Source of the DNA: an uncultured Bacteroides sp.
GTDB taxonomy: Bacteria; Bacteroidota; Bacteroidia; Bacteroidales; Bacteroidaceae
DNA: 64,000 bases
Assembly (NCBI RefSeq): GCF_963677945.1
Contig: NZ_OY782578.1
Location: 1,612,001 to 1,676,000 of the forward strand
Reading direction: 5' to 3'
Position 1 is the stretch's first letter. Every line of letters begins with the position of its first letter. The notes below the pieces were generated by a model. The model saw nothing but the letters and a program-made list of their open reading frames with translations. It was not told the origin of the DNA and did not search any database. This document shows, piece after piece, positions 51,657 to 62,191 of this stretch. The position numbers were made by a program, and so were the translations under genes.

Positions 51657-53690
51657 ATGGTAAAGTTAGAAACTTTATTAGATAACATCAAAAATGAGGG
51701 TAAAGAGTGCTTGGTTATAACTATGAGACATTCTTTACAAATACATAGCGATGCCGAAAGCAATATTTATGCAAAAAAAGTCCCTCTGATACTATTTGCT
51801 GCCGGATTTAAAAAAGAAAATGAAACCCAGGTGATGAAGCAGTACAACGGACTGGTATTGCTGGAGGTAAACAACCTTTCCGGTATGGATGAGGCTGCAA
51901 GCGTTCGCCACATTGCCTCCGGTTTTCCACAGACAAAAGCAGCGTTTATCGGCTCTACGGGCAAAACTGTGAAGATACTTGTGCCATTTACTCTTCCTGA
52001 CGGCACTTTGCCGCAAACATACAGGGAAGCGGAACTGTTTCATGCACATGCTTATCGTCGTGCTACTCTGTTATATCAGTCTCAGATACCTTTCCCCATA
52101 ACAATAAACAAACCGTCACTGGAACATAGTTGTCGTCTCTCTTTTGATCCAGAATTATATGTTGCGCCCCATGCGCACGCCATTCGTCAGGAACAGCCCA
52201 CAGAAATGCCTGCCGAAACCACCTATCAGGAGGCAGTGCAGGAAGAGAACAATCCTCTGCAGCGACTTGTTCCCGGATATGAACGAAGCAGAGTTGTTTC
52301 CACCCTGTTTGAAACCTCTTTAAGTGCCGCACTGAGCGAAACTCCCGGCTTCTCGAAAGAAGAAGGACTGAAACCGCTTTTGGTGGCATTGGCCAATAAC
52401 TGTTTCAAGTCGGGCATTCCCGAAGAGGAGGTGGTGAATGGCGCAATACTTCATTTTGGCATGAAAGAAAAAGAAGTTGAACTGAGGCAAACCATCCACA
52501 ACGCCTATCTTATAGGGAAGAATTTTGGAGAAAAGCCTTGCATTCGCCCCGAGCAGAGTATGGCGATGAAAGCCGATGAGTTTATGAAACGCCGTTACGA
52601 GTTCCGCTACAACACACAGACTACCGAGGTAGAGTACAGAGAGCGCAACTCATTCATTTTCGATTTCCGCCCCATCACCGACAGAGCACTGAACAGCATT
52701 GCCCTCAATGCTCAGTTTGAAGGTCTGCAACTGTGGGACAGAGACGTGAAACGTTACGTCTACTCAGACCGCGTGCCACTTTTCTCACCCATTGAACACT
52801 ACCTTTCCGCGCTTCCCAAGTGGGACGGGAAAGATCGTATACGTGCATTAGCCAATACAGTGCCGTGCGACAATCCGCATTGGCCCAACTTTTTCCACCG
52901 CTGGTTCCTCTGCATGACGGCCCATTGGAGAGGAACAGATAAAAAACACGCGAACAGCACAGCACCATTGCTCGTTGGTCCGCAAGGATATAAAAAGTCC
53001 ACTTTCTGTCTCAATATAATTCCTCCACAGTTGCGTGCCTACTACACGGACAGTATCGACTTCAGCCAGAAGCGCGATGCCGAGCTCTCCCTTAATCGGT
53101 TTGCGCTGATCAACATTGATGAGTTCGACCAGATTAACGCAGGCAATCAAGCCTTTCTGAAGCACATCCTTCAGAAGCCGTTGGTGAACACCCGCAAGCC
53201 GCACAAAACCGCCGTGCAGGAGCTTCGCCGTTACGCATCGTTCATAGCCACCAGCAATCATTCCGACTTGCTGACCGATGAATCCGGTGGTCGTCGTTTC
53301 ATCTGCATCCAGCTAACCGGAAAGATAGACGACACACAGTCCATTAACCACGAGCAGCTCTACGCGCAGGCAATCAGTGAGCTGCAAAGCGGAAAACGCT
53401 ATTGGTTTAACGCAGACGATGAGGCCATACTAATGAACAAGAACCGCGAGTTCGAACAAACCCCGGCAGCCGAGCAACTCTTCCACCAATACTATCGCCC
53501 TGCAGAAGCAGGCGAGGAGAGCAGTGAACTTCTTGCCGTGGAAATTTTCACCCAGTTGCAGAAGAAAAGCGGCATCAAGCTCACTGCCACAAGAGCAATT
53601 CATTTTGGCCGTATCCTTAAAAAACTAAACATCCCCAGCCGAAGGATTAACGGGAATGCTTATTATGATGTTGTGGAACGCCCAATTTAG
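51657..53690 (+). CDS. VirE/VapE-domain protein (primase-helicase type)
   Basis: A 677-residue protein with no signal peptide. Residues about 20-180 match the BT4734/VirE N-terminal type, which is primase-like. A helical middle region with ANNCFKSGIPEEEVVNGAI follows. The C-terminal half is the VapE ATPase: Walker A variant GPQGYKKST near residue 440, Walker B LINIDEFDQIN near 486, and the sensor block SFIATSNHSDLL with GGRRFICIQL. Such proteins serve replication in satellites and integrated elements. By eye its base composition is distinctly more G+C-rich than the PUL genes. No helper genes adjoin it. Its last codons recur at 2085-2110 and 55441-55520. Confidence 0.85.
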   Translation: MVKLETLLDNIKNEGKECLVITMRHSLQIHSDAESNIYAKKVPLILFAAGFKKENETQVMKQYNGLVLLEVNNLSGMDEAASVRHIASGFPQTKAAFIGSTGKTVKILVPFTLPDGTLPQTYREAELFHAHAYRRATLLYQSQIPFPITINKPSLEHSCRLSFDPELYVAPHAHAIRQEQPTEMPAETTYQEAVQEENNPLQRLVPGYERSRVVSTLFETSLSAALSETPGFSKEEGLKPLLVALANNCFKSGIPEEEVVNGAILHFGMKEKEVELRQTIHNAYLIGKNFGEKPCIRPEQSMAMKADEFMKRRYEFRYNTQTTEVEYRERNSFIFDFRPITDRALNSIALNAQFEGLQLWDRDVKRYVYSDRVPLFSPIEHYLSALPKWDGKDRIRALANTVPCDNPHWPNFFHRWFLCMTAHWRGTDKKHANSTAPLLVGPQGYKKSTFCLNIIPPQLRAYYTDSIDFSQKRDAELSLNRFALINIDEFDQINAGNQAFLKHILQKPLVNTRKPHKTAVQELRRYASFIATSNHSDLLTDESGGRRFICIQLTGKIDDTQSINHEQLYAQAISELQSGKRYWFNADDEAILMNKNREFEQTPAAEQLFHQYYRPAEAGEESSELLAVEIFTQLQKKSGIKLTATRAIHFGRILKKLNIPSRRINGNAYYDVVERPI

Positions 53691-53708
53691 TGGGGGATAG
53701 TTTTGATT

Positions 53709-53747
53709 TAGTAGCAGATAGAAAGTTGAACTTTTTATCTGCTACTA
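53709..53747 (+). terminator. Right-end hairpin of the VapE element (full copy)
   Basis: TAGTAGCAGATA (53709-53720) pairs perfectly with TATCTGCTACTA (53736-53747); the loop can add AAAGT with ACTTT. A second short stem runs into T tract at about 53750-53774. It stands 18 bases after the gene, so it can serve as terminator and as element end. Confidence 0.75.
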
Positions 53748-53784
53748 GTTGAAAGGCTTTTTGTTAGCGCTTTTTAGGTGTATT

Positions 53785-54609
53785 TTATTCCAATCTGATC
53801 ATATCTGCCAACTGTAAAAAGTACTCATTCGACCATATTTCAAGACTATCTGTATTTTTAATAAAAGGTTCTACATCTTGCTTTACCATTTTAATATCAG
53901 TAGAGACAAGACGTTCTTTTAGCAATTTGATAAATTCTTCTTTATCCATTTCGATACCATTAAATTCTCTGATACGTTCTTGCAGGTGCGTAAAATCCAA
54001 TTTAATGCCATTTCTTACATACCACTCAAAATCATACCAATCACGACCTTTTACACGATTTTTCCAGGTCCTGAAAACCAAAGCATGCATCTTTCCGGCA
54101 TATAGGTCAGGAAGACTAAAGCAACGCGTCATAAAAGAAAACGGATGTAATAGTAGCTTTTGCTCCGTTTGAAACTTCATCGGTGGCGCTGTGTCAACCT
54201 CAATCTTAATTTTTAAGCTCCTTTCTGTCTGAAAGGCAACATCATACACCTCTGTATCATCTTTTAGAAATGCTGATTCTATTTTCCCAAAATTTAGTTT
54301 ATCCTTTTTGGTTATTACGATATCTCGTCCTACTGTTTTAAATTCCTCAACAATAGCTTGAAAGTAATTTTCAAGCTTGAATGATTCATCCGAAGCCAAT
54401 AATGAAAAATCCATATCCTCCGAAAAACGTTCCATTTTATGAAATATTCGCAAACAAGTGCCACCATAGAAAGCAGCTTTGTCAAAGAAACCACCACGAT
54501 ACAATCCTGCCAATGTAATCTCTTGCATTACCTCATATATGGCATTTCTTTGATCTTTATCTGTTACTATTTCGTACCGCGAAAGCATCTGTTCAAAGAT
54601 ATTATTCAT
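53785..54609 (-). CDS. abiEii: AbiEii-type nucleotidyltransferase toxin
   Basis: A 274-residue nucleotidyltransferase of the AbiEii/DUF1814 family, the toxin of type IV toxin-antitoxin pairs that act in phage abortive infection. The nucleotide-binding signature FYGGTCLRIFHKMERFSEDMD shows Gly-Gly-Thr and the Asp-x-Asp pair (written as one stretch of about residues 48-68; shortened here to FYGGTCLR and SEDMDFSL). KMHALVFR and KGRDWYDFEWYV further on match the family. It overlaps the antitoxin gene by 8 bases. Its stop touches the truncated right end of the VapE element. Confidence 0.87.
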   Translation of the reverse strand: MNNIFEQMLSRYEIVTDKDQRNAIYEVMQEITLAGLYRGGFFDKAAFYGGTCLRIFHKMERFSEDMDFSLLASDESFKLENYFQAIVEEFKTVGRDIVITKKDKLNFGKIESAFLKDDTEVYDVAFQTERSLKIKIEVDTAPPMKFQTEQKLLLHPFSFMTRCFSLPDLYAGKMHALVFRTWKNRVKGRDWYDFEWYVRNGIKLDFTHLQERIREFNGIEMDKEEFIKLLKERLVSTDIKMVKQDVEPFIKNTDSLEIWSNEYFLQLADMIRLE

Positions 54610-55228
54610 GTTTTATGATTTTAATGAGGTTGTTAATGGTTCTCTTTTTCTTGCTAAATTGCAAACATTGCTCCAATATAGAAACCTCCATCTTATAGAG
54701 TTCATCCATATTAAATCGCAGGTCATCTTCCAGATAAGTAAGTAGCTCTTTCTGATAACGTAAGTTTAGATTAGATGTATTTACAATCAAGTCGCATAAG
54801 GCTTTTTCAGGTGAAGCAATCAAAAAAGCAGTATTATCTTTTACTTCTTGTCTTATCCCTATTGGAAAATATTCTTTTGAGCATTGTGTGTACTCAAATT
54901 TGCCAAGTACATTCTTAAATTCTTTCGAATGCTTAGTCGTTATCGAGCGCATTATATAAACGCTTTCCGGGATAAGTCCATAATAACGTAATGCCGACTC
55001 CATAGAAACATACGAGGGGCCGTATATGTGGTTAGCGATAAGTTCCATTGACAGTAGTTTGCCACTCTCTTTGGGAGAAACTACATACATACCTTTTTTG
55101 AGTCGGATAATTTTGTCAGACTTCTCCAATTCGCTGATTTTATTGTTCACAGACTTGTAACTGGGAAATATTGACTTCAAAAATGCAAAATCAACAGGTA
55201 TATTACCTATGTCAGAAAGAGTATTCAT
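54602..55228 (-). CDS. abiEi: AbiEi-type antitoxin
   Basis: A 208-residue protein with an N-terminal winged-helix region (KSVNNKISELEKSDKIIRL and KKGMYVVSP) and the AbiEi segment YGPSYVSMESALRYYGLIPE. It represses the operon and counteracts the AbiEii toxin in this family. It is upstream of and overlaps the toxin gene, the usual order. No -7 box was identified with confidence in the A/T-rich region 55229-55440. Confidence 0.83.
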   Translation of the reverse strand: MNTLSDIGNIPVDFAFLKSIFPSYKSVNNKISELEKSDKIIRLKKGMYVVSPKESGKLLSMELIANHIYGPSYVSMESALRYYGLIPESVYIMRSITTKHSKEFKNVLGKFEYTQCSKEYFPIGIRQEVKDNTAFLIASPEKALCDLIVNTSNLNLRYQKELLTYLEDDLRFNMDELYKMEVSILEQCLQFSKKKRTINNLIKIIKHE

Positions 55229-55440
55229 AATATTGCCTCTGTTTTGATTTACATTGCGAATATAGTAAAAAATAGAATAGATAATACTTTTTTATTCAAT
55301 TATCTGTTCTTAATTTTACTATTATTGGGACTTTATCCGTTTTCCATTAGTTTTGTTTCATTTCTATAAGTATTGAATTCTATGTTTTTCGAATTAGGTG
55401 TGATCATATAATATTTACTTTTGTTTCACAGAAGCAGAAA

Positions 55441-55650
55441 AGGAGAGCTGAAAAGCTGAATATCTCTCACCTAAGGATTAGCAGGAATACTTATTATGAT
55501 GTTGCGGAACGCCCAATTTAGTGGGAGATAGTTTTGATTTAGTAGCAGATGATTAGTTGAAACTTTTTATCTGCTACTAGCTGAAAGTGCTTTTGTTAGG
55601 GCTTTTTGGATGTTTTGGTGGGGGATGGGGGAGATGAATTGGGGAAAATT
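55441..55650 (+). mobile_element. Right-end remnant of the VapE element (copy 4)
   Basis: Bases 55453-55521 encode, in frame, the last 22 residues of a VapE-like protein (KLNI, then RNTYYDV and AERPI before the stop), differing at about a third of the positions from the full copy. The right hairpin follows (55540-55550 with 55569-55579), then the outer border also seen in copy 1. The rest of the gene is gone. The AbiE pair lies between this remnant and the truncated end at 53778. Confidence 0.75.
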
Positions 55651-55659
55651 TAGATTTTA

Positions 55660-57162
55660 TTAATTCTTAATCTTAAAAATGTTATTGATTTTTTCTTCCA
55701 TTTCATCAATCATATTGACGCTTTGCAGCTTCATATCTTCAGATGATTTGATGTTGTTTATTAATTGCCGCATATCTTCAAATGTTTTATGAAAGTGATC
55801 TTCTTGTTTTTGATATTTCAAATGTTCTTTTTTCTCAATTTTTTTTAGAATAAGTTTTGTGTAATTTTCAATCTTCTTACATAGATGAATGAGTTTTAAT
55901 GATTTGTTTATTTCAACAATCTGATCCAATCTCTTATAAGTTTCGTATCTTTTCAGGATATTGAGATCTTTATCTTCGCGGAAATGTATATAAAGATTTC
56001 TGCGAGTACTGTCAAGATGTAATGTCAATTCTTTAAAATCTTCTTGTATTGTTGCTGATTCAATCTCATGATGGTTAGTATCTATATCTATTAGTTTTTG
56101 CCATAAACTTTTAGTTTTTTTGACTTGATTATATCCATAAAGATGAGTTAATGCAGATACTTCAGTTAAGTAAATTTTGCGTAGTTGTAATGAACGCTCT
56201 AAACCAGATTTTGAATTCAGATATGCTTTCATAACACAAATCAGATCACACCTAATGAAACCAATCATCATACATATTAAAACAAGTTGATGTATGATTT
56301 CCAAATTTGAAGGAGACTGTATATTTTGAGTCGTTGTGAATTTTCTAAGTTGTTCATATATGATGTGTTTATTGTATATTGAATCAATATCTTTGCTTAT
56401 TTTAACCAGTGATTCGGTATATTGATCAGACAATTTTTCATTTGACGATAACTTCTTAGCTAAGCAATCTTCCATAAAGGATTTTACATCAAGTTCTGTT
56501 TTCTTAGTTGTAACACATGTTGATGTATTGTTGGGTGTCAATTTACTTATAATATTAAATATTTTGGTTGGAATCTGCGTGATACGTGAATGGATTAATA
56601 TATATTGAGAAACAGCTTTGCAATATTGGTTTTCGTCTGTGATACTGCATAATATGTTATACATATTTATAGGGTTATCATAGTGTGAAGTACTATTGCG
56701 CATTGTTTTATCGCAATAAACTTCTAACTTTGTTAGTTCATTATCTATTATTGCAACATCAGACTGGAGTGTTGGATTGTCTAACTTTAAAATTATTGGC
56801 TTTAACAAATTCCATACTCCATTATTATCTTTTGTTCCAGAAAAATAATTGTAGGCTTCATAAAGACTTTGATTAATGCTTTGTATATGATAACGTTTCT
56901 CGTAAGCAATAGTTGTATCTAATAATAATCGTAAAGATGCCATTAATTCGTGTAATATAAAATGGCTGCCTATATATAAGTCCTCGGTTTTACTGAAGAA
57001 TGATATAATAGAATCTGACATATCAGGAGTCTCAGATTCTATTGCTGCAAGACGAGTTCGCAACTCCATCATTACTGGGAATACCTCTTCTAATTCAGAT
57101 ATAGTATCCTCAGAATTTTGTATTAGTGAGTTTAATGCATTTTCACTTGCGGGTTTGCTCAT
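55660..57162 (-). CDS. Twin HEPN-like helical protein, unrecognised family
   Basis: A 500-residue, almost entirely helical cytoplasmic protein without signal peptide. It was not recognised as a named family. Two R-N-x3-H motifs are visible: RNSTSH (Arg155-His160) and RNLYIH (Arg388-His393). They lie in matching contexts: LEVYCDKTMRN against LHLDSTRRN. About 50 residues before each is another similar stretch (NNGVWNLLK against KTKSLWQKL). This points to an internal duplication. R-x4-H motifs in helical domains are the active site of HEPN ribonucleases. The C-terminus is a Lys/Glu-rich coiled coil. It is the third gene of an operon, 22 bases after the nucleotidase. A toxin-like RNase role is inferred, not shown. 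Confidence 0.6.
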   Translation of the reverse strand: MSKPASENALNSLIQNSEDTISELEEVFPVMMELRTRLAAIESETPDMSDSIISFFSKTEDLYIGSHFILHELMASLRLLLDTTIAYEKRYHIQSINQSLYEAYNYFSGTKDNNGVWNLLKPIILKLDNPTLQSDVAIIDNELTKLEVYCDKTMRNSTSHYDNPINMYNILCSITDENQYCKAVSQYILIHSRITQIPTKIFNIISKLTPNNTSTCVTTKKTELDVKSFMEDCLAKKLSSNEKLSDQYTESLVKISKDIDSIYNKHIIYEQLRKFTTTQNIQSPSNLEIIHQLVLICMMIGFIRCDLICVMKAYLNSKSGLERSLQLRKIYLTEVSALTHLYGYNQVKKTKSLWQKLIDIDTNHHEIESATIQEDFKELTLHLDSTRRNLYIHFREDKDLNILKRYETYKRLDQIVEINKSLKLIHLCKKIENYTKLILKKIEKKEHLKYQKQEDHFHKTFEDMRQLINNIKSSEDMKLQSVNMIDEMEEKINNIFKIKN

Positions 57163-57184
57163 GATTTATATTATATTGATTTTT

Positions 57185-58114
57185 TCACTCTTCTTTTTTA
57201 TTTACTATACCAAATGGAATATGCACTGCAGGTACATTCTTTAAGTTTGATAAGTGGCCCATCTGGTCATCGAAGAACATGTGAGGATGCATTATATCTA
57301 ATATTCTTGATTTGTCAATGCCACCTAGAAAAAATGCTTCGTTTACATCAACTCCCCAACTTTTTAATGTTTTTATTAAACGTTCGTGAGAGGGAGCATT
57401 GCGAGCTGTTACAATAGATGTTTTTAGAACGCGTTTATATTCAGGATTCTTCTGCTGCCTTTTGGCTTCCATCTTTTGGAAAAACGATATTTTTTTGAAC
57501 AAATCTCCAAGTAGACCTGGTTCTAAAGGTTCATCGGCACAAGCTTCTTCATGTTTATGGAATGCTTCCATTCCATCTTGTTGATATATCTTCTCAGCTT
57601 CGTCTGTGGCTATAACTCCATCGAAGTCAAAGGCTATTCGCAACTCTAAATCTTCATCATCATCTGAAATACTTGATTGTAAGACTTTTCCTGCAGCAAA
57701 ACCTTCTTTACAAGCTGATTTTATATCTGATTCTTCAGCAGAAAGGAAAAGAGATGCATTGTAAGCAGGCAAATATTTATAAGGACTTCCTCCTGAAAAG
57801 AAAGCAGCTCTAGTAATATCTAAGCCGTAGTGTTGTATTGTCCGAAAAACTCGTAATCCTGTTTCAGGACTATTTCGAGATAAAAGAATAACTTCTATCG
57901 GTTTTTCTTCGCTGAAAATTTCATTTAAGCGTAACAGCCTCTTTATGAAAGGATATGCAACACCTTTATTTAAATGATTATCAATATTCTTCTCTTGAAA
58001 TTTTTTGTATTCTTCAACACCTTGTTCTTTGTAAATTCTATGAGAATCGGTTAAGTCGAACAATGCACTTGATGCTACAGCAATAACGAGTTTTTTTTCT
58101 ATTGGGTAAGGCAT
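57185..58114 (-). CDS. Cytosolic 5'-nucleotidase family protein (HAD fold)
   Basis: A 309-residue protein of the 5_nucleotid (cN-I-like) family, which removes 5' phosphate from nucleoside monophosphates. The N-terminal segment AVASSALFDLTDSHRIY and the later AFDFDGVIATDEAEKIY (Asp163 and Asp165) are family hallmarks; TARNAP and FFDDQMGHL (Asp282, Asp283) supply the remaining HAD acids. It lies 6 bases after the phosphatase gene and 22 before the HEPN-like gene, so the three are co-transcribed. A nucleotidase beside a putative RNase could act on a nucleotide signal or deplete nucleotides; this is inference. Confidence 0.83.
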   Translation of the reverse strand: MPYPIEKKLVIAVASSALFDLTDSHRIYKEQGVEEYKKFQEKNIDNHLNKGVAYPFIKRLLRLNEIFSEEKPIEVILLSRNSPETGLRVFRTIQHYGLDITRAAFFSGGSPYKYLPAYNASLFLSAEESDIKSACKEGFAAGKVLQSSISDDDEDLELRIAFDFDGVIATDEAEKIYQQDGMEAFHKHEEACADEPLEPGLLGDLFKKISFFQKMEAKRQQKNPEYKRVLKTSIVTARNAPSHERLIKTLKSWGVDVNEAFFLGGIDKSRILDIMHPHMFFDDQMGHLSNLKNVPAVHIPFGIVNKKEE

Positions 58115-58120
58115 TTTTTA

Positions 58121-58597
58121 TTAATATTTAGACCAATTTTGAATAGCAAACATCCTCATACCATTGGCTGGCTTGTGTAAAGGATACAATTTTAGAAATT
58201 CTTTTTCTGCATCATAAAAGTCATTAGAGATAACTTTTATATGATGTAGATACAATAAGCCTATAGTAGCAGAACGAGATATCCCTTGATTACAATGAAC
58301 AAGGACTTTCATATTTTGAAGATGAACATCAATAGCATTAATTGCTTCATCAATAACTTCTTTAGGAATATAGTCTGGAGTATCAACATCAATTAAATTT
58401 AGAATAAGATGATTACCTCTATACGCTATCAAATATTCAGGATGAGTTTTTGGTGCTGACCTACCTGTATAACCTAATGCTTTTCGATGATAAGGTTCCT
58501 TACAAGCATGTATGACAAACCAATCGTTTTGAAATCTGACAATATTCTCATAATCATCCTGAGAACCGATGTGTAAATTATGGTGGATTTCTTTCAT
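58121..58597 (-). CDS. Dual-specificity-type protein phosphatase
   Basis: A 158-residue phosphatase. The signature HCNQGISRS (Cys102, Arg108) is the CX5R active site; DVDTPDY at 70-76 is the likely general-acid loop. The GRSAPKTHPEYL region is unusual for eukaryotic-type DUSPs but the length fits. It starts the three-gene operon. Its -7 box was not identified with confidence in 58598-58832, an A/T-rich region otherwise empty. Substrates are unknown; phosphoprotein or nucleotide-derived phosphate are possible. Confidence 0.82.
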   Translation of the reverse strand: MKEIHHNLHIGSQDDYENIVRFQNDWFVIHACKEPYHRKALGYTGRSAPKTHPEYLIAYRGNHLILNLIDVDTPDYIPKEVIDEAINAIDVHLQNMKVLVHCNQGISRSATIGLLYLHHIKVISNDFYDAEKEFLKLYPLHKPANGMRMFAIQNWSKY

Positions 58598-58832
58598 TAC
58601 TAAATGTTATTTAATTATGACTATTTATTACTCCTTGATTTGTCTATTTTTCTTATATAACTAATCCCGATCTTCATTTTGAATTCATCATACCACACTA
58701 CTAATTTATATAAAGTGAATGTAAATAGACTAAAAATAGATAAGGACCAATTTTAAAATATCTAATTGATGCTTTATAGCTAGATTTTGTTTTCTATTTT
58801 TGTTCGATCGATAAATATTCCACATTTACAAT

Positions 58833-59381
58833 CTACTTATGAAAGCATCCCTCAATACAATATACAGATAATTTTTCGACAGTATTTTCTTTTTCACAGC
58901 ACTTCTGCATGTTGCAACGTTCACACAATTCTGAAACACTGCTAACATCTAGTGTGCCTTGCTTTTCATGGAGAGAATAGAGATACTTTAAATATTTACC
59001 TTCGGCAATGCGGTGGTGCTGATCTTTGGCTTTCAATCCTCTCCATTCATAAAGGCGCTTGCCTCCTTTTGATGAATTGCAACTTTTACAAACCATAACC
59101 ACATTATCCGTAATATCTTCTCCTCCACAACATCTGGGCAGAATATGTTCGACTGTTAAATCCTTTGTTTCCCCGCAATAGATACATGCGTTTGGATTTT
59201 CTTTTTCTTTAAGCCATTCACGAACAGATGATGACCAATGTATTTCTCCTGAACAGAGGCTTTTCCAACGATTCATAATCATTCCATAATTTGTTTTCCC
59301 AAAGCCTGAAGCTTCGGATATAATCTTTGCGTACTGATAAAAAATTTGTTCACGAACTGTTTTGACTGCTTTTGGAGGCAT
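58833..59381 (-). CDS. HNH endonuclease
   Basis: A 182-residue protein. The HNH core runs from Cys66-x2-Cys69 (CIYCG), through VEHILPRCCGG (Glu78-His79) and DNVVMVC (Asn93), to Cys98-x2-Cys101. This is a complete zinc-bound beta-beta-alpha metal nuclease. The N-terminal 60 residues are helical and the C-terminus carries another Cys-rich cluster (CERCNMQKCC). Its partner or target is unknown. The small stand-alone form occurs in defence islands and mobile elements. It is on the strand opposite to the intron remnant at 59521. Confidence 0.82.
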   Translation of the reverse strand: MPPKAVKTVREQIFYQYAKIISEASGFGKTNYGMIMNRWKSLCSGEIHWSSSVREWLKEKENPNACIYCGETKDLTVEHILPRCCGGEDITDNVVMVCKSCNSSKGGKRLYEWRGLKAKDQHHRIAEGKYLKYLYSLHEKQGTLDVSSVSELCERCNMQKCCEKENTVEKLSVYCIEGCFHK

Positions 59382-59520
59382 AATATTAATTTAAGGTCCT
59401 TAATTGTTTTTCATAAAGTACTGCGGGAATCCGTGTAGAGGTCTATGAATTCTTATTGCTAATAAGAGTATCTGCAAATGTATAAAATAATTTTTCACAA
59501 TGAAATTAAAATGTATCCTA

Positions 59521-59605
59521 AATAAGGAACCGCACGTACGGTGGTGTGAGAGGTCGGAAAATGAAATAGGAGGAAAACTATTTCATTTTCCTCCTACTCG
59601 ATTGA
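59521..59605 (+). other. 3' end of a group II intron (remnant)
   Basis: The run GTACGGTGGTGTGAGAGGTC is typical of the end of domain V and the link to domain VI of bacterial group II introns. It is followed by a domain VI-like hairpin (59556-59568 with 59579-59591, 13 perfect pairs) and the terminal CCTACTCGATT. Domain V itself appears shortened to the CCGCACGTACGG stem. No intron-encoded reverse transcriptase or 5' end was found upstream within 59382-59520, so this is a fragment. Confidence 0.6.
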
Positions 59606-59614
59606 AATAAAGAA

Positions 59615-62191
59615 TTACATATTTGCAACAACTGTATAAGTTCCTGCCTTATACTCTTTTGTTTCTTTACTACCAGGGATGGTGACAGAGGCAGTTGCAC
59701 CTTTTGGAATGGTGAACTTCCAGATCCATTTGTTGCCTTTGTATTTCCAACTGCTTTTTATTGTTCCTGCAGCCGACTTATACTGTGCATTGATATAACC
59801 TAATCGTTTGTCGGGAACAGGGGACATGATGATATGTTTGAATCCTGGTTTTGCTGGGTCGGCAGAGATGCCGGCTACTGTTTCCCATATCCATTCACAT
59901 ACGCAACCGTAGGCATAATGATTGAAACTGTTCATTCCCTTTGGTCCCATACCGTTTTCTATCATATAACTGTTCCAGCGTTCCCAGATGGTTGTTGCAC
60001 CATTATCTATAGAATAGAGCCATGATGGATTCTTACGTTGGAAGAGTAGGTTGTAGGCTACATCTATCATTCCATTTTCAGTGAGCGCAGGCATAAGGAT
60101 TGATGTTCCCAGGAATCCTGTCTGCAGACAGTCGCCATGGGCTTTGAAATTTTCTCGTAGACGGGTAATCATTTCTTCACGTGCCTTTCCTTTGATGAGC
60201 TTATTTTTTAATGCAAAGAGGGCAGGGGTCTGCATGGTGTTCAGAATGTCCAACTTAAACTTGCCATCTGTGGTAAGGAAATTGTCTAAGATATATGATC
60301 TGGCTTCCTGCATCATCAACTCGTATTTCTTTGTGTCACGAGAAGTTGCTTTAGCCATGTCGCGCATCATCTCGGCATCCATCAACCAGTATGCTGCACT
60401 AAGATAATTCCAGTATTCTTCTGCTTCAGGAAGTGTTCCATTTTTATCTCTCGACTTTCCACTGCATGTCTCCAATGGTTCGTAACTTAACCAGTCGGCC
60501 CACTGTGAACCTTTATTCTCTTCTAATAATAAGTTGTGAGTGTAACGGGTTTCGTTAGCATGGTTGATAAACTTCTCCATGGAAGTCCAGTTCTCATTTA
60601 TGATGTCTACATTTCCAAACTGTTTCCAAACTGTATATGGAACGATTACTCCGGCATCGGCCCATCCTAGTCGCATACTCTCATCGGAACAATATTGACC
60701 AAATGGTGCTACACCCGGGAAACCTCCTTGTGGACTTTGGGTATCGCGCATATCGCCCATCCACTTATGGAAGAAGTTTTGCGTGTTGGCAAAGAATGTT
60801 CCTGTCTCGGCAAACACTTGTGTATCAGCAGTCCATCCCAAACGTTCGTTGCGTTGAGGGCAATCGGTAGGTATAGACAGATAGTTGGAGCGCTGTCCCC
60901 ACAGAGTGTTGGATATAAGTAGGTTTATTGATTCGTTGCCGGTGGTGATATTACCTATCTCCATGTCTTTGGTGATAGACGTTATCGGTATGGAACGAAT
61001 GCTTTTAAAAGTAACCTTCTCGGTGGCAACGATAGAGATAAATCTATATCCATAGAAGGTGTTGCGCGGTTGGAAACAAACTGGTTTGTTGTTGCCAAAG
61101 ATATAATCAAGCATCATACCTGTGTTTGGAGTACGAAGGTTAAGGCGATGAACGCTACCTTCGGGACCATCCATACCTCTGCTGTAGGCTCCATTACCAT
61201 CGTTTAGTAGTTCTGCTGGTTCGCAATGAATCTGTGCTCCCTTTTCTGCCTGGAATACAAACGATGGTACTGCAGCACAGTTTTGCCCAAAGTCAACTAC
61301 AAGTGTCTGATGTGGCATGAGTGTGATAATGTCGCCATCGGAATACTCGTTTGTTATTACCACTTTACCATATTCTTTGTCGCTTTTCCCTTCTATGTCA
61401 TCCCAGATGTATGCTCTTGTTGGTTTAAGTGCCAGGTCTTCTCGGAAATATACTTCAGCACCCTGAGAAGGTAATATCACGCCATTGAATTCTTTGTTGA
61501 CTTCGGGAGTGGTAAGGGCAACAGAAGTGTCGTATCCTGCAGTTTCTCCATCGTCAAAGATTTCTCCATCGAAGATTGCTGCATGTTTTACTTTTCCTGC
61601 TATGCCTGCTTTCCAGTTGTTAGTGTCTGTACCATATAGTTTTGTGGTACTATCAGTGAAGATGAGTTTCAACACTCCGCGAAAGGCACACTTCTTTCCA
61701 ATCATACCATTGTTGTTGCCCGGAGTGATAATCTTGTCGGCCCACCAACCTGGTGTTACCTGTACGGAAAGACTATTTTCGGCACCTGCATCCTTCTTGA
61801 AGGCATCGGTAACATCGTAGGTGAACGACCGTTTAGTTTTGGCATAATGAGTGAAACCTGGTTTGAGAATCTCTTTTCCTATAGGTGTACCATTGACATA
61901 CAGGTCGTAGACTCCCAGTCCGGTGGTCATCCACAGGGCTGTCTTTACTTTCTTAACGTTTTTGACAGTACTTTTAAACCAGTTTGCTCCATCAGCAGAA
62001 CGTGAATTGTCGTTAATGCGCTCTGTGACTACAGGAGCATTGGCAGCAGATATCCACTCGGAACAATTCCATGCAGAATTGTCGAGAGCACTGGTCTTAT
62101 ACCCCTTAGCTTGTTTAGTCGACTGGGCATAAGTGGATAATGAAAATACAGTAAATGAAAAAACAATAATTGATTTAGTAATGTGTCTCAT
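59615..62191 (-). CDS. GH78 alpha-L-rhamnosidase
   Basis: An 858-residue secreted enzyme with signal peptide ending at STYAQ. N-terminal beta-sandwich domains carry GANWFKSTV and TTGLGVYDLYVNG. The (alpha/alpha)6 barrel has the GH78 catalytic-region motif PTDCPQRNERLGWTAD with conserved acids, and DNGATTIWERWNSY further on. A C-terminal sandwich follows. It removes terminal rhamnose, as found on rhamnogalacturonan or arabinogalactan. It stands alone, without susCD; its product could complement the first PUL. It starts a gap of about 200 bases with no features. Confidence 0.93.
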   Translation of the reverse strand: MRHITKSIIVFSFTVFSLSTYAQSTKQAKGYKTSALDNSAWNCSEWISAANAPVVTERINDNSRSADGANWFKSTVKNVKKVKTALWMTTGLGVYDLYVNGTPIGKEILKPGFTHYAKTKRSFTYDVTDAFKKDAGAENSLSVQVTPGWWADKIITPGNNNGMIGKKCAFRGVLKLIFTDSTTKLYGTDTNNWKAGIAGKVKHAAIFDGEIFDDGETAGYDTSVALTTPEVNKEFNGVILPSQGAEVYFREDLALKPTRAYIWDDIEGKSDKEYGKVVITNEYSDGDIITLMPHQTLVVDFGQNCAAVPSFVFQAEKGAQIHCEPAELLNDGNGAYSRGMDGPEGSVHRLNLRTPNTGMMLDYIFGNNKPVCFQPRNTFYGYRFISIVATEKVTFKSIRSIPITSITKDMEIGNITTGNESINLLISNTLWGQRSNYLSIPTDCPQRNERLGWTADTQVFAETGTFFANTQNFFHKWMGDMRDTQSPQGGFPGVAPFGQYCSDESMRLGWADAGVIVPYTVWKQFGNVDIINENWTSMEKFINHANETRYTHNLLLEENKGSQWADWLSYEPLETCSGKSRDKNGTLPEAEEYWNYLSAAYWLMDAEMMRDMAKATSRDTKKYELMMQEARSYILDNFLTTDGKFKLDILNTMQTPALFALKNKLIKGKAREEMITRLRENFKAHGDCLQTGFLGTSILMPALTENGMIDVAYNLLFQRKNPSWLYSIDNGATTIWERWNSYMIENGMGPKGMNSFNHYAYGCVCEWIWETVAGISADPAKPGFKHIIMSPVPDKRLGYINAQYKSAAGTIKSSWKYKGNKWIWKFTIPKGATASVTIPGSKETKEYKAGTYTVVANM

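Follow-up and report, generated by a model that had tools for sequence, protein, structure and literature searches.

A minus-strand operon with a tandem HEPN-like protein

In a 64,000-nucleotide stretch of the genome of an uncultured Bacteroides sp. (contig NZ_OY782578.1, positions 1,612,001 to 1,676,000; hereafter the window), three consecutive genes encode a small dual-specificity-type phosphatase, a cN-I type HAD 5'-nucleotidase and a 500-residue protein with two HEPN-like domains (Table 1). We judge the 500-residue protein to be a new tandem HEPN family and probably an RNase effector, an activity that we infer. It is fairly probable that the operon is a modular defence cassette, in which this effector stands after a separate phosphatase-HAD pair, its two halves pairing within one chain to form an RNase and the two enzymes acting on nucleotides.

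A sequence-only reading of the window had described a CX5R phosphatase, a cN-I-like nucleotidase and an unrecognised protein with two R-N-x3-H motifs in duplicated halves, encoded beside AbiE, a VapE element and an HNH nuclease gene. All of these features were recovered. The three open reading frames (ORFs) lie on the minus strand, with gaps of 6 bases between phosphatase and nucleotidase genes and 22 bases between nucleotidase and 500-residue protein genes, as that reading had it; a shared transcript is likely, as judged from this spacing. The twin HEPN-like reading was also supported, by the conservation of the motif residues, a helical model and, at weak scores, the nearest solved folds.

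Conserved motifs and internal duplication of the 500-residue protein

The two domains of the 500-residue protein carry one motif each, R155-N-x3-H160 and R388-N-x3-H393. At least two R-N-x3-H motifs arose in 0.035% of 20,000 shuffles of its sequence, and at least two R-x4-H motifs, in which the N is not required, in 8.9%; the motif by itself is therefore weak evidence. Alignment of one half against the other gave a score of 68, compared to 39.3 ± 6.7 for shuffled sequences, 3 of 2000 of which reached it, and with another split of the protein the half-versus-half score was reached by 4 of 1000 shuffles. For two tandem relatives, L132 and L141, the corresponding scores are 144 and 107, which no shuffle out of 1000 reached in either case, and the motifs of the halves align. 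The halves of the 500-residue protein are truly duplicated.

Further comparison of nine domain copies from six proteins, at an identity of ~20%, revealed that the R-x4-H motif is present and aligned in every copy. Among eight of these copies, the fragment L133 being left aside, only L, E, W, R and H form invariant columns. A chance origin of the motif was rejected on the shuffles, the duplication and the conservation in nine copies.

Predicted fold of the HEPN-like domain

Domain 2, modelled by AlphaFold2 from seven domain rows, is all helix with a pLDDT of 83.8 and a pTM of 0.73, and its helical structure is predicted with confidence. Structural similarity search of this model against PDB using Foldseek revealed that the first six matches all come from HEPN-MNT toxin complexes, the matched chain being assigned to the HEPN subunit on account of its length and helical content. 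HEPN-superfamily entries make up 13 of the 50 PDB matches listed (6m6u, 6m6w, 7bxo, 5yep, sacsin 3o10, 1wwp and MtlR 6kcr), and the remainder are mostly designed or generic helix bundles. MtlR and 1wwp are counted as HEPN in the part of PMC3710099 available to us, which also states that HEPN families have little in common beyond their motifs. Among viral structure models, domain 2 had no match at E 0.001. Altogether, a HEPN fold of the 500-residue protein is probable.

Relatives of the 500-residue protein

The 500-residue protein has no family match in Pfam, NCBIfam or PADLOC, and its matches to PHROGs and PDB sequences are at chance level (for PDB, E of at least 0.53). The family profile matched trypanosome receptors (E 0.0022) and Hook3 (E 0.2) in PDB, which we judged to be chance. 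A single-sequence search found no relative in the genomes of 147 other relatives or, at E 0.001, in those of 391 other members of the phylum, the phylum matches at E 0.005-0.035 being judged chance as well. Viral contigs, plasmids and phages yielded no relative of the full protein, and viral contigs and phages none of the single-domain form. A peptide-pattern scan of genome contigs returned 14 fitting stretches and no relative; it is a weak scan, as such genomes later yielded relatives.

The search of 78 phosphatase-bearing genomes, made in sets of 40 and 38, revealed a full-length relative of 495 residues with 24% identity (L132) and a 126-residue fragment with 43% identity (L133), a third match at E 0.0044 being left uncounted. 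These genomes represent 79 of 80 phosphatase loci, L117 being on the same contig as L114 and L098 being left out. The fragment (L133:1-1641), closest of all in sequence to the window protein, adjoins an IS66 element recognised by eye and is apparently a broken copy. A profile search over 393 genomes of the order added a tandem relative of 496 residues (L141) and a single-domain protein (L142), and a match in G212 at E 4e-4 was set aside as chance, the protein being a transporter permease by eye. Domain-profile matches within the window's own genome are members of the profile itself and have no evidential value. L142 aligns with half 2 of the window protein at E 2.9e-6, compared to only E 0.20 for half 1, and its gene adjoins one for a reverse transcriptase that carries a group II intron maturase domain. 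When used as the query, L142 led to a 227-residue protein on plasmids of two Flavobacterium records (L145; 36.7% identity, E 2e-33), whose gene precedes hsdM by 6 bases at the head of a type I restriction-modification (R-M) operon that continues with hsdS and hsdR. With two tandem relatives, two single-domain relatives and one fragment, the family appears to be rare in Bacteroidota.

A defence-linked phosphatase

The phosphatase matches PF00782 (DSPc) with an E of 1.6e-8 (34.9 bits against a cut-off of 33.5), and a match at E 0.0027 to PF22785, a family of polymorphic-toxin phosphatases, is under the cut-off of that family. In a ten-row alignment, both HACKEPYHR, the mark of the family, and HCNxGxSR are invariant, as is D70, the putative catalytic acid. 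The CKEPYHR form, or a close one, was found in 68 of 80 loci, a figure biased by [VI]HACKEPY having been one of the retrieval patterns.

A scan of genome contigs gave 95 related loci, of which 80 were kept, 59 of them at least 10 kb long. A match to HsdM or HsdR is present in 24 of the 80 and to both in 16, compared to 1 of 16 other loci that served as unmatched controls. In a Bacteroides locus (L042) the phosphatase gene sits between HsdS and HsdR, and L043 has the identical layout. The phosphatase ORF was in the gene lists of 74 loci, with near neighbours downstream for 48 and upstream for 47. Of the 86 neighbour proteins longer than 100 residues 82 were scanned, and the 25 commonest of 78 Pfam families include Methylase_S (9), HSDR_N (4), RhuM (4), AAA_13 (3), N6_Mtase (3), KAP (2), AbiTii (2) and OLD-like TOPRIM (2); the PrrC-like AAA_13 neighbours were confirmed in L117 and L118. 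The phosphatase is a separate defence-linked gene.

One locus (L047:6787-12241) combines HsdS, AbiTii, the phosphatase, a cyclase (PF00211, E 1.8e-9), a possible Pycsar effector (PF18967, E 0.0028, under the cut-off) and an HsdR gene truncated where the contig stops.

When 92 phosphatase loci were scanned for motifs, a HAD hydrolase turned up close to the phosphatase in three loci from Bacteroidota, L045, L046 and L050. The HAD and phosphatase genes share 14 bases in L046 (9001-10354) and 1 base in L050 (9001-12789). These two HAD enzymes match the PADLOC candidate PDC-S34 (E 3e-124 and 7.5e-107, respectively), a name that we did not find in the literature searched, and the pair of L050 is followed by an HD-domain protein (E 0.00038, under the cut-off). 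In L045 two ORFs separate the genes, and the HAD enzyme matches PF12710 (E 2.6e-6, Pfam scan only). The phosphatase, alone or with another HAD enzyme, occupies such loci without this HEPN protein. It is also encoded on five phage records and ten viral contigs, including L032, which has type I R-M genes as well. On the viral contigs L033, L034 and L037-L041, the same phosphatase family is perhaps a counter-defence or takeover gene.

The nucleotidase

The nucleotidase matches PF06189 (cN-I) over residues 1-305 with an E of 9e-125. Its DFDGV segment corresponds to HAD motif I. It also matches the PADLOC candidate PDC-S08 (E 1e-134), a 5'-nucleotidase (PF06189) that is an uncharacterised candidate according to the part of PMC10855318 that we consulted. 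Four of 295 genomes of the order carry the gene, among them that of the window, as do 5 of 40 phosphatase-bearing genomes; at two of these last five places (L135 and L136) no phosphatase lies nearby. Among six plasmid regions viewed, one nucleotidase relative adjoins Dsr1 and a phosphorothioation-dependent restriction gene, and another lies near an R-M gene.

Also among the six, on a Zymomonas plasmid (L011:5001-8570), a relative of the nucleotidase for which no gene is listed stands beside SIR2, nucleoside triphosphate pyrophosphatase and adenosine deaminase genes, a set that we take to resemble Kongming.

The three genes occur separately

None of the 80 phosphatase loci has a relative of the nucleotidase or of the 500-residue protein in the flank covered, by gene lists or by a six-frame search at E 0.01. 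Similarly, neither the phosphatase nor the nucleotidase lies within the surrounding 8 to 18 kb of L132, L141, L142, L133 or L145, and the tandem relatives L132 and L141 stand among unrelated genes. Two genomes with a profile-found HEPN-like gene, G343 and G162, gave no match to the phosphatase. A HEPN-like relative is present in 2 of 78 phosphatase-bearing genomes compared to 0 of 538 others queried with the same sequence (Fisher p 0.016), the groups being unmatched and the thresholds different; in those two genomes the HEPN-like gene and the phosphatase are on different contigs.

A conserved three-gene system was rejected on the absence of co-occurrence in the 80 loci, the missing partners around the five relatives and the two genomes that lack a phosphatase match. 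A modular cassette is favoured instead because the parts occur separately, across loci, relatives and contigs. The sequence-only reading had proposed a new type of three-gene system, a claim that is not supported, and the conserved co-occurrence by which it was to be recognised was not found beyond the window operon in these 80 loci and five relatives. That reading had held that homologues lacking both the motif residues and the partner genes would speak against it: the partners are indeed missing from the relatives, and R and H are retained in all nine copies. In the fraction of matches covered, the literature on HEPN proteins with type I R-M or RNA repair, on phosphatases with R-M and on nucleotidases with defence does not describe the operon.

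Weighing of the alternatives

Besides the modular cassette, it is unlikely that the three genes form one system, in which a tandem HEPN toxin would be controlled by the tyrosine-type phosphatase and the nucleotidase, for example through removal of a phosphoryl or nucleotidyl mark or a nucleotide ligand, and infection would switch the RNase on. As a parallel, the consulted part of PMC3710099 proposes that the MNT antitoxin nucleotidylates its HepT. The narrow gaps on a single strand and the skewed distribution of HEPN-like relatives between the two unmatched genome groups, searched at different thresholds, favour one system, but the different contigs in the two genomes concerned, the two HEPN-bearing genomes without a phosphatase match and the lack of either partner in all 80 phosphatase loci argue against it. 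A HEPN-MNT toxin-antitoxin pair was rejected, as the gene upstream of the 500-residue protein is the nucleotidase, and no nucleotidyltransferase lies closer than AbiEii, which is encoded downstream as the partner of AbiEi.

It is less likely still that the 500-residue protein has another helical fold, in which R-x4-H would serve structure or binding, and that the three genes are chance neighbours in foreign DNA. The weak fold scores, the lack of a profile match to HepT and a G+C content of 29.1% for the gene, compared to 36.7% for the window, are consistent with this. On the other side stand R and H as two of only five invariant columns among diverged copies, the origin of the six best PDB matches in HEPN toxin complexes, and the position of L145 within an R-M operon. 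HEPN RNases leave 2',3'-cyclic phosphate and 5'-OH ends, and RNA 5'-phosphatases belong to the superfamily of this phosphatase. A role of the phosphatase and the HAD enzyme in RNA-end processing, trimming the HEPN-cut ends or the released nucleotides and either limiting damage or blocking phage repair enzymes, is the least probable of the readings considered. The PrrC-like AAA_13 proteins (3 of 82 neighbours), the carriage of the phosphatase by phages, where RNA repair would matter, and its weak PF22785 match, under the cut-off, speak for such a role. Conversely, the three genes include no RNA ligase or kinase, and the 25 commonest neighbour families include no RNase family besides AAA_13.

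Several observations weigh against the reading as a tandem HEPN defence cassette. The residue following R, which in the HEPN superfamily is polar and mostly N, D or H, is N in five of nine copies, both window copies included, E in two, V in one and C in one. The invariant E (E34 of the domain alignment) has no K or R at +4, and the Ex3[KR] spacing typical of the second conserved acidic residue is not kept; this motif is present in many HEPN families, not all, according to the part of PMC3710099 consulted. No PDB match of domain 2 reached E 0.001, the 50 listed having E values of 0.22-2.0 and TM-scores of 0.12-0.48. The full-length model, built without relatives, has a pLDDT of 35.6 and is unusable, so that the pairing of the halves is unseen. 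In addition, hhalign of the domain profile against 14 HepT proteins gave no match (probability 0.2); these proteins come from 14 of 26 loci, eight having been dropped as fragments, broken or below the cut-off and four having no ORF that passed the filter. As for the settings, no defence genes were recognised by eye next to L132 and L141, the nucleotidase lies in ordinary surroundings, again by eye, in the three other genomes of the order, and three of the six plasmid regions place its relatives beside other genes. Moreover, the stretch that separates the HNH gene from the operon's first ORF contains no -7 motif of the form taken as the Bacteroides consensus.

Layout and surroundings of the operon

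One flank of the operon carries AbiEi and AbiEii (PADLOC, E 2.9e-75 and 4.5e-116) as well as a VapE-like gene, and the opposite flank an HNH gene (HNH_5, E 1.5e-12) followed by an ordinary rhamnosidase. Of the eight larger genes in 51657-62191, none is an hsd gene by Pfam and PADLOC scans. Beyond the AbiE pair stands a second copy of the VapE-like gene's 3' end, together with its hairpin (53620-53775 and 55451-55607, 87.5% over 160 bases), as if insertion of the pair had taken place at, or next to, the end of a related gene.

Table 1. Features of the three-gene operon, in window coordinates
Feature	Position	Strand	Basis
Dual-specificity-type phosphatase, 158 aa, first gene	58121..58597	-	ORF; PF00782; family marked by HACKEPYHR
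Second conserved C-x5-R, CKEPYHR, residues 32-38 (C32-R38)	58484..58504	-	Invariant in 10 of 10 rows; same or close form in 68/80 loci
Catalytic CX5R loop, C102-R108 (in HCNQGISRS)	58274..58294	-	HCxxGxS[R/K] in 79/80 loci
cN-I type HAD 5'-nucleotidase, 309 aa, middle gene	57185..58114	-	ORF; PF06189; PDC-S08
HAD motif I, DFDGV, residues 163-167	57614..57628	-	Sequence
Tandem HEPN-like protein, 500 aa, putative RNase effector, last gene	55660..57162	-	ORF; no family match; relatives L132, L133, L141, L142, L145
HEPN-like domain 1, residues 61-230	56473..56982	-	Repeat alignment
Motif R155-N-x3-H160 (RNSTSH)	56683..56700	-	R and H present in all nine domain copies
HEPN-like domain 2, residues 289-470	55753..56298	-	Repeat alignment; AlphaFold2 model, pLDDT 83.8
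Motif R388-N-x3-H393 (RNLYIH)	55984..56001	-	R388 and H393 invariant in five-row alignment

Comparison with known systems

The 500-residue protein resembles the HEPN superfamily in its all-helical domain, as modelled, in its R-x4-H motif, here in the RNxxxH form, and in its R-M-linked relatives, and the nearest solved folds are in HepT complexes (6m6u, 6m6w, 7bxo and 5yep), but it has no match to the Pfam HEPN families or to the HepT profile. It differs further in that the motif is intact in both domains of one chain and that no nucleotidyltransferase gene lies directly upstream. Chains with two HEPN domains, such as Csx1 and Swt1, are known from the consulted part of PMC3710099, which also offers PrrC-PrrI as a precedent for an R-M-linked HEPN protein. 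Like PrrC and RloC, the HEPN-like relative L145 and, elsewhere, the phosphatase accompany type I R-M genes as additional members of the operon; however, the window operon has no ABC ATPase part and no hsd genes beside it.

The window nucleotidase matches PDC-S08, yet its gene stands second in a run of three. HAD phosphatases that act on nucleotides in defence are found among the CARF-HAD effectors, which differ in being fused to CARF and membrane parts and in requiring a CRISPR signal (PMC12715507, seen in part). Relatives of the phosphatase or the nucleotidase adjoin Pycsar, AbiTii, Dsr1 and Kongming-like genes at other loci, but none of these genes is within the window operon.

Proposed mechanism and implications

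We propose that the 500-residue protein probably folds into an intramolecular HEPN pair of its two halves, in which both R-x4-H sites would face a composite RNase active site, and that the protein is probably an abortive-infection or toxin-like RNase. Infection would release the halves to pair and cut RNA, by analogy to the R-M-linked HEPN toxins, and the setting of a HEPN gene in an R-M operon is described for at least 16 HEPN clades (PMC3710099, in the part consulted). The phosphatase and the HAD enzyme would most likely act on nucleotides, stripping phosphates and lowering or reshaping the nucleotide pool; the available part of PMC12715507 provides a precedent in a defence effector, a HAD phosphatase, whose action lowers ATP and IMP. 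The cassette may protect the host from phages. It is rather unlikely that the operon is a new defence system with two phosphate-removing enzymes as the gate of a single-chain tandem HEPN RNase. In such a system, the phosphatase would take a mark off the RNase or respond to a phosphorylated signal, the HAD enzyme would sense or deplete nucleotides, and different loci would combine the same phosphatase with different HAD families.

The present analysis extends the likely RNase effectors by a HEPN-like family that is absent from Pfam, NCBIfam and PADLOC and comes in both a tandem and a single form. In addition, it singles out a small HACKEPYHR phosphatase that recurs in type I R-M loci, by defence genes, in phages and next to candidate-listed HAD enzymes. 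Were its substrate a defence signal or nucleotides, the carriage of the phosphatase by both hosts and phages would be explained.

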